Source of the DNA: Candidatus Cloacimonas acidaminovorans str. Evry
GTDB taxonomy: Bacteria; Cloacimonadota; Cloacimonadia; Cloacimonadales; Cloacimonadaceae
NCBI RefSeq assembly: GCF_000146065.2
Contig: NC_020449.1
Coordinates: 310,001-374,000 of the forward strand
DNA length: 64,000 nt
Direction of reading: 5' to 3'
Shown in pieces: positions 11,096-54,716 of the stretch. Within the stretch, counting starts at the first letter, position 1. The number at the start of each line of letters is the position of its first letter. The notes beneath the pieces are model-generated. The model worked only from the letters and a program-made list of their open reading frames with translations. It ran no database searches and had not been told where the DNA came from. The position numbers and the translations under genes were made by a program.

Positions 11096-11282
11096 AATCA
11101 TCTATATAACAAGCAATTACATAAATATAGTTCAGGGTGGGCAAAATATTTAGTTATCTATTTAGTTTTTATAGGGTTAAGATTAATATTTAGGAGTTAT
11201 AATGATTTTTAAAAAGGAAGTTTGACCTCCTAATCAACTAACTTTTAACCTCTATTTCGTTACCGTAAAAATCGTAATTTCC

Positions 11283-11845
11283 CGAGGGGTTTACACACCC
11301 ATCGCTATCATTGTGTCGCCCTTTGGGGCTTTTTTTAGTGGGGAAGAGAAAAAGAAAAAGAAGTCGGGGCTTTCATTTTCCGAGGGGCTTACGCCACCAT
11401 CGCTATCATTGTGTCGCCCTTTGGGCTTTCAAAGGTAATAAATCGTAAATTTGACAGTTATTTTCCTGTTTTCCTGGTTAGATTCATTCTTCATTTTTCA
11501 TTCTTCATTTTCCGAGGGGCTTACGCCTCCATCGCTATCATTGTGTCGCCCTTTGGTATTTCAAAGGTAATAAATCGTAAATTTGACAGTTATTTTCCTG
11601 GTTTCCATGTTAAATTCATTCTTCATTTTTCATTCTTCATTTTCCGAGGGGCTTACGCCTCCATCGCTATCATTGTGTCGCCCTCCGGGCTTTTTGGCAA
11701 AGGGCAAAGAGCAGAGGGCATCTCAACCCTCTCAACCATCTCAACCTTCTCAACCTTCTTTAATTTTACATTCTACATTCTACATTTTACATTTTCTGAG
11801 GGGCTTACGCCTCCATCGCTATATTTGTTTCGCATTGTGAAATTG
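11283..11845 (+). repeat. Five copies of the GAGGGGCTTACGCC repeat
   Basis: Copies begin at 11283, 11381, 11513, 11645 and 11797. Each runs for about 50 bases through a CATCGCTATCATTGTGTCG core; most finish with GCCC-loop-GGGC and a T run, like a small terminator, while the last copy is degenerate. Copies two to four sit in 132-base tandem units that also carry AATAAATCGTAAATTTGACA and pyrimidine-rich CATTCTTCATTTT words. Open frames through the region are by-products of the repeat. Other copies occur near 24 kb and 54.7 kb. Confidence 0.88.
11720..11759 (+). repeat. Decamer tandem repeat (TCTCAACCNT)
   Basis: Four units of ten bases of the type TCTCAACC plus two variable bases follow one another. 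The same decamer appears on the other strand at 23951-24000 and on this strand near 24995-25030 and 54722-54760, always beside the GAGGGGCTTACGCC repeat. Confidence 0.8.
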
Positions 11846-22472: not shown

Positions 22473-23254
22473 TTCCTTTTCTCAAAATGCACGCTCAAGG
22501 TAACGATTTTGTTATCCTGGACTACTTTGCTCCGGAGTCATTTGCTTTGGCAAAGCTGGATTTTTCTTCTGTAGCGGAAGAACTTTGTAAACCGCATTTT
22601 GGCATTGGAGCAGATGGATTGGTTTTACTTATGCCTAATGAATCCTGCGATGCGCAAATGTTTATTCACAATGCAGATGGCTCAACAGCTGAAATGTGCG
22701 GTTCTGCATTACGCTGTGTAACTTGGATTTTGCATCAAAAAACCGGAAAAAAGGAATTTAGAGTCCAAACCGAGGCGGGACTTAAAACCTGTTATGTAAA
22801 TGAGGATAACACTATAACCGTTAACCTGGGAATGCCTTCAATGCTGAAAAGTGCCTATCAGGTAATGGATTTTACCGGCGACTTGGTGGAAATTGGCAAT
22901 CAGCATTTTATTGTTTGGGTTAATTCTTTGAAAGATGATCCCCATCTTCAATACGGTTCTGCTATAGAACATCACAAGGGCTTTGCACAAACGGTAAATG
23001 TGCATTTTGCCGTTTTACTGAATAGAACAGCGGTAGCCATCAAAATCTGGGAAAAAGGTTGCGGAGCTACTCTGGCTTGTGGAACAGGTGCTTCCGCTAC
23101 AGTTTTTAGCGGTATTGCCAAGGGCTTATTAAATAATGAAGTTGAGGTCTTAATGCCAGGAGGAATAGTTAAAATCAATGCTTCCGCTAATGGCTATTTA
23201 CTAAGCGGAGAGGTCTGCCAGTCATTTCAGGGAGTTTACAATTGGAAAATTTAG
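22466..23254 (+). CDS. dapF: Diaminopimelate epimerase
   Basis: DapF interconverts LL- and meso-diaminopimelate by two cysteines. Both are present: C78 in EMCGSALRC and C205 in ACGTGAS, plus the N-terminal HAQGNDFVILD. The start is GTG at 22466 within the end of dapB, preceded by GAGGA. The family GNPHFVVF motif reads GNQHFIVWV here, a small divergence. The length is 262 aa. Confidence 0.94.
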   Translation: MLIPFLKMHAQGNDFVILDYFAPESFALAKLDFSSVAEELCKPHFGIGADGLVLLMPNESCDAQMFIHNADGSTAEMCGSALRCVTWILHQKTGKKEFRVQTEAGLKTCYVNEDNTITVNLGMPSMLKSAYQVMDFTGDLVEIGNQHFIVWVNSLKDDPHLQYGSAIEHHKGFAQTVNVHFAVLLNRTAVAIKIWEKGCGATLACGTGASATVFSGIAKGLLNNEVEVLMPGGIVKINASANGYLLSGEVCQSFQGVYNWKI

Positions 23255-23862
23255 GCAAGTATTTTCTGGAATTGCGTTTACAGCGTGAATACAGCTATCA
23301 GGATATCTGGAATGAACTGCGTATTCCGGAAAACCAGATAAAGGCAATTGAAGAAAATCGCTTTGCCGAACTTGGTCCCTATGGAGTTGCTAAAACATTG
23401 GTCTATAACTATGCCCGTTTTTTGGAAGCGGATGTGGATGCCGTAATGTATACTTTTTCCAGTTTAATGCCGGAAAGTGCCAAACCGGAATTCCAACCTG
23501 CAATTCCTGTGAAAGAAAAAAAGATTATGCTTTCCACCAACTTTATGTGGCTGATTGGCATTTTATTGATTATTATTATTCTCGGTTCCATTTTATGGTA
23601 TGCCTACAATCAAAATTGGCTGAAAATGCCCGATTTTTTTGCTTCTAAAAAACCCGATTCCACTGCCGTTATAATTAAAGAAGAAAAAGAAGAAACCAAA
23701 CCAGATACCTTGCGTCAACGCTTGCGTGCTATCAGTGAATCCATCCCTCAAACTAATAGTGTATCTTCTCCCAAATCCGAAACAAAAACTGTTCCACCGG
23801 ATACAACTGACTACATTGGCAATATTTTAGGCGATAGCCCAGTCAATGTGCCAATCCACTAA
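23242..23862 (+). CDS. RodZ-like helix-turn-helix membrane protein
   Basis: A 206-aa protein. Residues 4-68 resemble the HTH_25 domain of RodZ (LRLQREYSYQDIWNELRI, YGVAKTLVYNYARFLE). One transmembrane segment, WLIGILLIIIILGSILWYAY, lies near residues 96-115, and a Ser/Thr/Pro-rich C-terminal region without a clear domain follows. RodZ links MreB to the cell wall machinery. The start is TTG at 23242 with CAGGGAG upstream, overlapping dapF by 13 bases. The assignment is by domain order; the beta-sheet C-domain of Escherichia coli RodZ is not evident. Confidence 0.7.
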   Translation: MENLGKYFLELRLQREYSYQDIWNELRIPENQIKAIEENRFAELGPYGVAKTLVYNYARFLEADVDAVMYTFSSLMPESAKPEFQPAIPVKEKKIMLSTNFMWLIGILLIIIILGSILWYAYNQNWLKMPDFFASKKPDSTAVIIKEEKEETKPDTLRQRLRAISESIPQTNSVSSPKSETKTVPPDTTDYIGNILGDSPVNVPIH

Positions 23863-23880
23863 CCTTTTACCTCTGCCAAA

Positions 23881-24060
23881 AGCCCTGTCACAACTATAGC
23901 GATGGGTGTGTAAACCCCTCGGAAAATGAAAAATGTAGAATGTAGAATTAAAGAGGGTTGAGAAGGTTGAGAGGGTTGAGAAAGTTTAGAGGGTTGAGAT
24001 TTCATTAAAGCCCGGAGGGCGACACAACTATAGCGATGGGTGCGTAAGCCCCTCGTTAAA
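23881..24060 (-). repeat. Reverse GAGGGGCTTACGCC copies with decamer block
   Basis: Copies of the dispersed repeat on the minus strand lie at about 23881-23927 and 24010-24055. Between them is a minus-strand block of TCTCAACC decamers (23951-24000) and TACATTCTACATTTT words. The whole segment is an inverted, diverged copy of 11690-11840, about 12 kb away. It follows the RodZ-like gene. Confidence 0.82.
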
Positions 24061-24102
24061 ATGAAATCCCCGAGTTCCTTTTTTCACCATAGCTGGAAAA
24101 AT

Positions 24103-24725
24103 AAGCCCCTTAGGGCGACACAATGATGTAGATGGTGGCATAAGCCCCTCGGAAAATTCACGATTTAATCGGCGGGAGGTTTTGACTTACAATTTTCACC
24201 TACCTTTAAGGTAACTACACCCTGCAATCATTTTTAACATATAAACGCAGTTTCATTGGTCTCCAAACCGAAAAATTGAGAGTTAAAAACAGAAACAAAA
24301 TAGTTGTGTATGAATTCCTACTTTTTTGCGTTATGCAGCGGATGAGATTCCCATATCATTCCCATATCGCGATATGGGAATGATATGGGAGTCATATTGG
24401 AGTTTTATTGAAATAATTTTGGGATTTCTTTGGGAATGATATTTGTTCCGTTTGCTAATAGCAAGCTGTGATTTGATTTAGCCAGTTCTTTCAGAAAAGA
24501 AAGAATGTGCCGACCCGTTTTTAAATAATGTTTTGTTTTGACTCACAATTTCTCAGATTTATTAACCAGTTGCAGATTGGTTGAAAGTGAGAAAAGAATG
24601 TGGGGTGTGGGAACATTGAAGGCAGGTGAAAATTGTAAGTTAAAACTTTCCACCGATTAAATCGTTAATTTTTCGAGGGGCTTACGCCACCTTCTACATC
24701 ATTGTGTCGCCCTGACGGGCTTTTG
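24103..24725. repeat. Inverted-repeat composite element enclosing array C
   Basis: The left end 24103-24209 and right end 24618-24725 are inverted copies of each other over about 105 bases, with roughly a dozen differences. Each end contains a GAGGGGCTTACGCC copy and a shared AGGTGAAAATTGTAAGT word. The about 410-base interior contains no gene but holds the perfect 42-base palindrome at 24349-24390. No transposase or obvious target duplication was seen. A diverged relative is at 54174-54716. Confidence 0.75.
24349..24400. repeat. 11-bp-phased dyad array C with 42-bp perfect palindrome
   Basis: CCCATATC at 24350 and 24361 is mirrored by GATATGGG at 24371 and 24382, and a weaker CATATTGG follows at 24393; steps on each side are 11 bases. 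Positions 24349-24390 are a perfect palindrome with the dyad between 24369 and 24370 (CG|CG). It has the same geometry as array A but an unrelated core word. It lies in the convergent gap between the RodZ-like gene and the pyridoxal kinase gene. Confidence 0.93.
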
Positions 24726-24772
24726 GAAAAGGGAAGGATAAAAGGAAAAAGGAACTCAGGGCTTACATTTTT

Positions 24773-24920
24773 CGAGGGGCTTACGCCACCATCGCTATCA
24801 TTGTGTCGCCCTGACGGGCTTTTGGAAAAGGTAAGGATAAAAGGAAAAAGGAACTCAGGGCTTACATTTTTCGAGGGGCTTACGCCACCATCGCTATCAT
24901 TGTGTCGCCCTACGGGCTTT
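24773..24920 (+). repeat. 99-bp tandem units with GAGGGGCTTACGCC copies
   Basis: Copies at 24674 (the right end of the composite element), 24773 and 24872 are exactly 99 bases apart. The intervening TTTTGGAAAAGG / AAAGGAACTCAGGGC segments are nearly identical. Each copy ends in GCCC-loop-GGGC-TTTT. The decamer-like TCTCAACC words follow to 25030. Open frames across this stretch only reflect 99 being divisible by three. Confidence 0.88.
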
Positions 24921-25060
24921 AAGGTATCTAAACCTGCTAAACCTTCTCAACCTATTGCTATTTTAGCTACCCTGATATCAATATTTGAGCTTTAAGGTAT
25001 CTCAACCCTCTAAACCTTCTAAACCCTTTTCTCTTTTCTCTTTGTAGAAAAGAAACACGG

Positions 25061-25912
25061 TTACTCTTTGTGAGAATAGAAGAGGTGGGGGTCTTTTTTT
25101 AAGGCAGAAATAAGGTCAATGCCTGTTTTACGATCCTGCACAACAGGGATGCTAATTGTTATTGCCTCCTGCAAAAAGGCGATAGTTCCTTCTATTGATT
25201 GAACAATATCACAGCCATTTAAGATACCGGCTAAAAGCAATGCAGAAAAGCAATCACCTGCTCCTGGGAAAATTACGGGGGCATAGTTACATTCAAATTC
25301 CCGGAAAAAATTGTTTTTAGCAGCAAAAAAGGCAACCGAGGAAAAATTTCCTTGAGAATTCGGGGCACTGGTTATAACTATATTTTGAGGTCCTAAAGCG
25401 GCTAATTTTTTACAGCATTCATATACTTGGACGGTTTTTAAGTCCTTCCCATTTTTATAACCGCTTAAAAAAATTGCTTCTGTCCAATTGGGAGTAATAA
25501 TATGACTGATTGAAACAAGAGAACGCATTGCCTCTACCATTTCCCAAGTGTAACAACTATATAATTTTCCCTCATCTGCTAAAACGGGGTCAACTAAAAC
25601 GATTCCCTCTTTTTTAAGCAGAGAAGGCAGATTTTCAAGTAAGAGATATACTTGAGCAGGAGAGCCCAAAAAACCTGTATAAACTGCATCAAAGCTAAGC
25701 TGAAGTTCTTTCCAATGCGTTAGGGATTTTTTTAAAAGCTCGCTATTATCCTGCAGAATATAATCAGGATAATCGGTATTGGCAGAAAGTAAAGCACTGG
25801 GCATAGCGGTAACTTCAATTCCCATCCTGTTCATAATAGGGATAATTGCCATTAAGGAAGTGTTACCAAAACCGGAAAGATCGTGAATTGCTAAAACCTT
25901 GGGATGGGGCAT
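25061..25912 (-). CDS. Pyridoxal/pyridoxamine kinase family protein
   Basis: A 283-aa ribokinase-fold kinase of the PdxK/PdxY group, which phosphorylates B6 vitamers. The N-terminal HDLSGFGNTSL, the TGFLGSPAQV segment, VDPVLADEGKLY and the anion-hole motif PGAGDCFSALL are visible. Its start lies two bases after the phosphoesterase stop, so it is the downstream member of a two-gene unit. Its substrate could also be hydroxymethylpyrimidine, but the opening motif favours pyridoxal or pyridoxamine. Confidence 0.83.
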   Translation of the reverse strand: MPHPKVLAIHDLSGFGNTSLMAIIPIMNRMGIEVTAMPSALLSANTDYPDYILQDNSELLKKSLTHWKELQLSFDAVYTGFLGSPAQVYLLLENLPSLLKKEGIVLVDPVLADEGKLYSCYTWEMVEAMRSLVSISHIITPNWTEAIFLSGYKNGKDLKTVQVYECCKKLAALGPQNIVITSAPNSQGNFSSVAFFAAKNNFFREFECNYAPVIFPGAGDCFSALLLAGILNGCDIVQSIEGTIAFLQEAITISIPVVQDRKTGIDLISALKKDPHLFYSHKE

Positions 25913-54173: not shown

Positions 54174-54716
54174 CCAAGGGGCGATACAATCAGAGCTCGG
54201 TTGTATGCGTAAAAGCAAGTGGTTGATGATAATTGGGGAAGCAGGTGAAAATTGTAAGTAAAAACATCTCTGCCACGAAATAATGGGTAAACCACAAATA
54301 TGTTTTATCATTTCCATTTTGAAAATTCCTTTGTCCTTCCGGAGAAAGCAGGAAACTAATTATTTGCATATAGCTAACTAAATTTTAAATATGGAATTTG
54401 GGGATTTTTGCAAGGGAGTATTGGTCACTCATTGCTTACCCATTACTAATGGCATTAGCAATGGGTAAGCAATGGGTAAGCAATGCTATTAGGGAAGAGA
54501 ATATAATCTATTGTGTTATGGTGAATTAGCAAAATAATTAGCTGTGGGTCTTTGTGAGGGAAAGTTTCAGGAAAATATCAAAAGTCGTCACGAGTCATAA
54601 GCGCCAAAAAAGTTATTTCTCAGGTCAAAGTTTTGAAGGTGCTAATGACTCCTAACTTAAATTTTTCCGAGGGGCTTACGCACCCATCGCTATCATTGTA
54701 TTGCCCTGCCAGCTTT
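54174..54716. repeat. Diverged inverted-repeat island enclosing array D
   Basis: The left part (54174-54275) contains a degenerate reverse copy of the dispersed repeat and AGGTGAAAATTGTAAGT as in 24618-24640. The right end (54668-54715) is a forward GAGGGGCTTACGCC copy. Array D lies between. The layout mirrors 24103-24725, but the ends are far more diverged. Decamers follow at 54722-54760. Confidence 0.6.
54423..54492. repeat. 11-bp-phased dyad array D with 45-bp near-perfect palindrome
   Basis: GGGTAAGC-type words at 54460-54470 and 54471-54481, with a weaker 54482-54492, are mirrored by 54434-54444 and a degenerate 54423-54433; steps are 11 bases. Positions 54430-54474 form a palindrome around G54452 with one mismatched pair. 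It lies between the convergent transglutaminase-like and N-formylglutamate amidohydrolase-like genes. Confidence 0.9.

Follow-up and report, generated by a model that had tools for sequence, protein, structure and literature searches.

Head-to-head arrays of an 11-bp unit form a dispersed family of intergenic palindromes in Cloacimonadaceae

A perfect 42-bp palindrome in Candidatus Cloacimonas acidaminovorans str. Evry belongs to a dispersed repeat family in which tandem copies of an 11-bp unit form two arrays placed head to head across a dyad. We favour, with confidence slightly short of even, the explanation that a non-autonomous, REPIN- or MITE-like, non-coding intergenic element of about 50–100 bp has this palindrome as its core, and that its paired arrays would be bound by a putative multimeric DNA-binding protein; mobility and recognition by a protein are the parts of this explanation that we infer. 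This identifies a major class of repeats in a lineage that has not been cultured.

The window, by which we mean the whole 64,000-nucleotide stretch that was analysed (NC_020449.1, positions 310,001–374,000), holds the palindrome at 24349–24390, where direct reading of the sequence pairs 21 of 21 positions (TCCCATATCATTCCCATATCG and CGATATGGGAATGATATGGGA) around a dyad between 24369 and 24370. Within the left arm, CCCATATC occurs at 24350–24357 and 24361–24368, and within the right arm, GATATGGG occurs at 24371–24378 and 24382–24389, the spacing being 11 bp in both, so that two units per arm stand head to head; the first-pass annotation had described both the perfect palindrome and the repeat carried twice per arm, and both descriptions are borne out. 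The arms can be extended to 24346–24393 with 23 of 24 pairs, which is the extended core of the dispersed family and the extent matched by model R1 (71 bits). No other palindrome in the window is perfect over arms of at least 10 bp; in a window of random sequence of the same composition, arms of at least 21 bp are expected 9e-8 times. The right arm (24370–24435, plus strand) runs on for about six progressively more diverged 11-bp units (CGATATGGGAA TGATATGGGAG TCATATTGGAG TTTTATTGAAA TAATTTTGGGA TTTCTTTGGGA), as shown by listing the units and by the lag-11 periodicity of the outer arms across copies (identity 0.41–0.52 at that lag vs ~0.25). The left arm (24336–24369, minus strand) has two good units followed by a diverged stretch, reading CGATATGGGAA TGATATGGGAA TCTCATCCGCT on the minus strand.

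The palindrome lies inside a repeat-rich composite, in a gene-free stretch of 1.2 kb (~23863–25060) bounded by an HTH_25 gene (23242–23862) on one side and by a convergent gene, pdxK-like by eye (25061–25912), on the other; a 97-aa ORF at 24702 consists of repeat units. The composite has outer inverted-repeat arms (24103–24238, plus strand, and 24587–24722, minus strand; pairing at 84%), and because these are centred at ~24412, the palindrome lies about 43 bp off the true middle. Four copies (L009–L012, the window copy included) have this composite and its outer inverted repeats, several hundred bases in all, and what is seen in the window is common to L010 (91% over 862 bp), L011, and L012; a fifth copy, L014, has part of it at 72–76%, and the remaining copies share the core only. 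Nested around the palindrome is a separate family, a 99-bp high-copy repeat (ATTTTTCGAGGGGCTTACGCCACC...), with tandem copies from 24668 to 24911–24922 and more, in opposite orientation, from 24006 to 24156–24160. The genome contains 71 matches to this repeat and the relative G002 contains many, and a 99-bp tandem-unit intergenic repeat (ATTTTTCGAGGGGCTTACGCCACCATCGCTATCATTGTGTCGCCCT...) also occurs at ~11270–11833 and 54665–54700 of the window.

The core is present in 13 copies in the closed 2,246,820-bp genome, and the family recurs in independent metagenome assemblies (UBA5835, UBA6081, and HGW-Cloacimonetes-3). Both observations speak against a single recent palindrome or an assembly artefact, a reading that we find scarcely credible; the artefact that the first-pass annotation had named as a possible refutation is excluded by the copies in independent genomes. 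One pair of copies, L014 and L015, was considered as a transposon and rejected as such, the palindrome there being part of a 1.4-kb segmental duplication.

Like REPs and REPINs, the copies are palindromic, intergenic, and multiple (13 for this sequence dialect). Among palindromes found de novo in 464 kb of the genome, 1 of 11 centres falls inside an ORF of at least 120 aa, at an ORF coverage of 84%; in G016, which represents another genus of the same family, 0 of 16 do, at a coverage of 91%. Gene orientation around 58 copies shows no preference (12 convergent, 14 divergent, and 32 tandem pairs). These positions bear on the possibility that the element acts as RNA, as a hairpin that, once transcribed, terminates transcription or makes mRNA more stable in the manner of many REPs. 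A stem of 19–22 bp can indeed form from either strand (z ~ -6), but the palindrome has neither a U tract nor a terminator call, the 58 copies show no bias towards 3' ends, the oriented element shows no polarity of G-U vs A-C mismatches, and no Rfam family is matched at gathering score; we therefore hold action as RNA to be very unlikely. REPs lie mostly in tandem and convergent gaps (PMC3733652). An intrinsic terminator in the strict sense, a G+C-rich hairpin followed by a T run at 3' ends, was rejected for want of a terminator call and of any 3'-end bias.

What is constant across the family is the period. A sequence-blind scan for palindromes with periodic arms, covering 464 kb (~21%) of the genome, returned 10 matches at lag 11 and 0 at lags 7, 8, 9, 10, 12, 13, and 14. 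In 400 kb of G016, which has no model match, the scan again returned 10 at lag 11 and 0 at lags 8, 9, 10, 12, and 13, with units (ACAAGGGGATC, TTTGCTCTTGA, and CATTAAAGAAT) that represent dialects other than those of C. acidaminovorans. No periodic-arm palindromes were found in 256 kb of G046, from a different family, or in 50 kb of E. coli. The strict period near one helical turn that characterises iteron-like arrays is thus found here, at lag 11 only, and the stretches sampled from the two genera hold about one 11-bp-unit palindrome per 25–45 kb.

Dissimilar dialects coexist within the one genome, with units GATATGGGAAT, GCAATGGGTAA, and ATTAACGCTTG. The second (GCAATGGGTAA) accounts for 6 of the 10 lag-11 matches, one of them near 54452 in the window, and the third (ATTAACGCTTG) for 2 of the 10; the model also detected a decayed copy with unit GTTACGGAAGT. 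The window match of the second dialect, found by the de novo scan, spans 54430–54474 (CATTGCTTACCCATTACTAATG and CATTAGCAATGGGTAAGCAATG on either side of a central G). Its right arm is one unit longer, reaching 54485 and followed by CTATTAGGGAAGAG, and the partner repeats beside it are those that also flank the palindrome at 24349–24390. It lies ~320 bp downstream of a 746-aa gene with, by eye, a T9SS-like C-terminal domain. The number of units per arm, from two to several, differs between arms and between copies, and by inspection the arms tend towards a purine-rich terminal module (e.g. CAAGCAAGGGAAGA or CTATTAGGGAAGAG). A wider interpretation, that these palindromes form an architecture-defined class of chromosomal elements in which two head-to-head 11-bp arrays take many unrelated unit sequences and are served by undescribed recognition or transposition machinery of the Cloacimonadaceae, is possible, if on the doubtful side.

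Sister genomes share the architecture with species-specific sequence, as a pattern search found for CCCATAACCCTCCCGTATC in G005 and for CCCATATCATTCCCATATC in G008, the latter with an additional inner unit. A covariance model built from 37 copies for the family search matched all nine genomes of the genus (9/9), each with its own sequence variant, and, beyond the genus and within the taxonomic family, five genomes (G024, G032, G026, G033, and G035); one of 24 more distant genomes gave two weak matches. Copy number ranges from ~1 to ~50 per genome. Across 84,980 species, a collection-wide pattern matched in Cloacimonadota only; because it was tuned to the known dialects, others are possible elsewhere. 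The same pattern found no match in viral contigs, on which ground a phage origin was rejected.

Most palindrome positions differ between species, and some are orthologous: L016 corresponds to L075 with both flanks collinear, L019 to L080, and L013 to L167, while one side is further retained at wrbA (L017/L126) and at tpiA (L017/L102). The intergenic DNA at wrbA and tpiA is too diverged for insertion boundaries to be read. In G005, 7 of the 20 copies first fetched sit in a repeat of ~330 bp with inverted ends (GCTCACTTTCAAA...TTTGAAAGTGAGC; loci L059, L061, L063, L067, L069, L070, and L074), and the rest are without it. A recurring gene family lies ~200–260 bp from many palindromes in G008, G005, and G002 (loci L037, L041, L045, L046, L098, and L167), and its products may carry a putative secretion-type C-terminal domain.

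Covariation between the arms was measured over 34 distinct copies, in which 90.3% of paired cells are complementary vs 83.5% after shuffling, and double-changed cells number 63 vs 31.5 in shuffles (0/500 shuffles), a measure that kinship among copies can inflate. A second test, comparing arms paired within with arms paired between copies of one genome, gave coupling in G008 and, for the first 11 positions (units 1-11), in G005 (p=0.0004); coupling was not significant in the 12 C. acidaminovorans copies taken alone. Uncompensated arm changes are present at the orthologous pairs L016/L075 and L019/L080. The compensating changes that the first-pass annotation had proposed to look for in relatives are thus seen as covariation, alongside some changes left uncompensated. 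The core GGGAGGGTTAYGGG hardly varies among 40 G005 copies, while the X arm (CTGCAAGCAAGGCTGAA) and Y arm (GGCTAAATCTATGTAA) on either side of it, still recognisable, have decayed to low information, which suggests that the core is maintained.

These results also bear on the annotation's argument that so long a palindrome would be unstable or selected against unless it had a role or was recent. Lengths usually called unstable in E. coli are well above 42 bp, so that instability carries little weight as an argument. The 13 dispersed copies, the homologues in all nine genomes of the genus, and the retained orthologous positions give no support to a recent one-off origin, and a role gains support only indirectly, from the arm covariation and from the near-invariant core of the relative's copies.

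Could mutation alone have built such palindromes? Slippage could expand an 11-bp unit and template switching copy one arm onto the other, leaving palindromes without function; the differing unit numbers fit this, as do the arms of individual copies (e.g. L063) that are matched beyond the family norm, as templated correction would give. Such a by-product leaves unexplained the dozens of non-homologous sites with near-identical cores, the invariant core between decayed flanks, and the exclusivity of period 11, and we judge it improbable. A serious rival is that the arrays serve the host, as iteron- or BIME-like sites, selected at fixed places, where a resident protein of nucleoid organisation, segregation, or supercoiling control would bind with one protein unit per helical turn. 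It accords with the maintained core, although an invariant core with decayed flanks fits host function and a mobile element equally, and with the orthologous positions listed above, the lack of strand polarity among mismatches, and the presence of the family in all nine genomes of the genus. Set against it are the wide range of copy numbers, the several unrelated dialects in one genome, the patchy presence in sister genera, and the majority of positions that species do not share, so that we think service to the host, while a contender, on the whole unlikely.

Under the REPIN- or MITE-like explanation, each 11-bp unit, about one helical turn long, would hold one protomer or dimer of the multimeric protein, and the dyad would orient the two arrays towards each other, or else allow the strand to form a hairpin. 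That a period of about one helical turn is kept while the sequence changes suggests a protein multimerising along one face of the duplex. Copies would spread in trans, in REPIN or MITE fashion, with each dialect suited to a recognition protein of its own; such spread, which would resemble that of REPINs by RAYTs (PMC3116915), is suggested by the dispersal of copies, the coexistence of dialects, and the patchy distribution. Y1 transposase genes do occur, but in six Y1 loci there is no R1-family palindrome within 1.5 kb of the gene, and inspection of seven G024/G032 copies by eye revealed no target-site duplication. A palindrome of another dialect, 11-bp-periodic and of the GGCAGGGTTGC type, lies ~0.7 kb from a Y1 gene in G005 (L083:770-850).

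IS-like sequences (TGTCCTAA...GACAC ends, with an HTH_Tnp_1 gene) start within ~60–100 bp of two palindromes (L019:2164-2571, and just right of the palindrome at L017), as if palindromes were insertion targets. Compared with G001/G002, gene order breaks at the window locus, at L017, and at L021, L016 is collinear, and the break at L019 is accounted for by the adjacent IS-like gene. Because the background is high (~3–4 breaks in 17 kb of a 20-kb stretch), a role of palindromes in causing rearrangements is suggestive only. GC skew in 20 samples of the C. acidaminovorans genome (L235–L254) changes sign irregularly and clearly marks neither an origin nor a terminus, as a much-rearranged genome would give.

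Among known systems, REPs and REPINs with their RAYTs are alike in being intergenic, multicopy, palindromic, and non-coding, in forming several sequence groups per genome, and in consisting of inverted doublets that can fold into hairpins; the copies inspected here likewise show no target duplication. The present arms differ as tandem arrays of a strict 11-bp unit in varying number, and the family has no GTAG/CGTC tag, no bias against divergent gene pairs, and, in the six Y1 loci, no palindrome flanking a RAYT. Such tags define the REP super-families (PMC3733652); in the outer arms examined here, GTAG occurs in 1/24, 14/80, and 8/78 and CGTC in 1, 0, and 1, both being absent from the consensus. 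With parC of plasmid R1, where ParR requires at least two 11-bp repeats (PMC9426499), any likeness would be one of working only, namely that a protein binds to 11-bp repeats set one helical turn from each other. On the plasmid, the direct repeats of parC form one locus next to parM, whereas here there are dozens of inverted chromosomal arrays with no linked gene. ERIC/IRU, RU-2, and other enterobacterial MITE-like repeats are likewise imperfect intergenic palindromes of ~100 bp with no known autonomous partner, and are set apart in that the descriptions consulted mention neither 11-bp modular arms nor coexisting dialects. Drosophila foldback elements also have inverted repeats built of short tandem units; they are eukaryotic, much larger, and of another unit length, and we claim no relation. 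Dispersed bacterial palindromes as such are already known, and what is unusual here is an 11-bp arm period that stays fixed while the sequence changes freely; this points to recognition by a count of helical turns, for which the natural dialects offer a ready set of matched sites with which to seek a co-varying protein.
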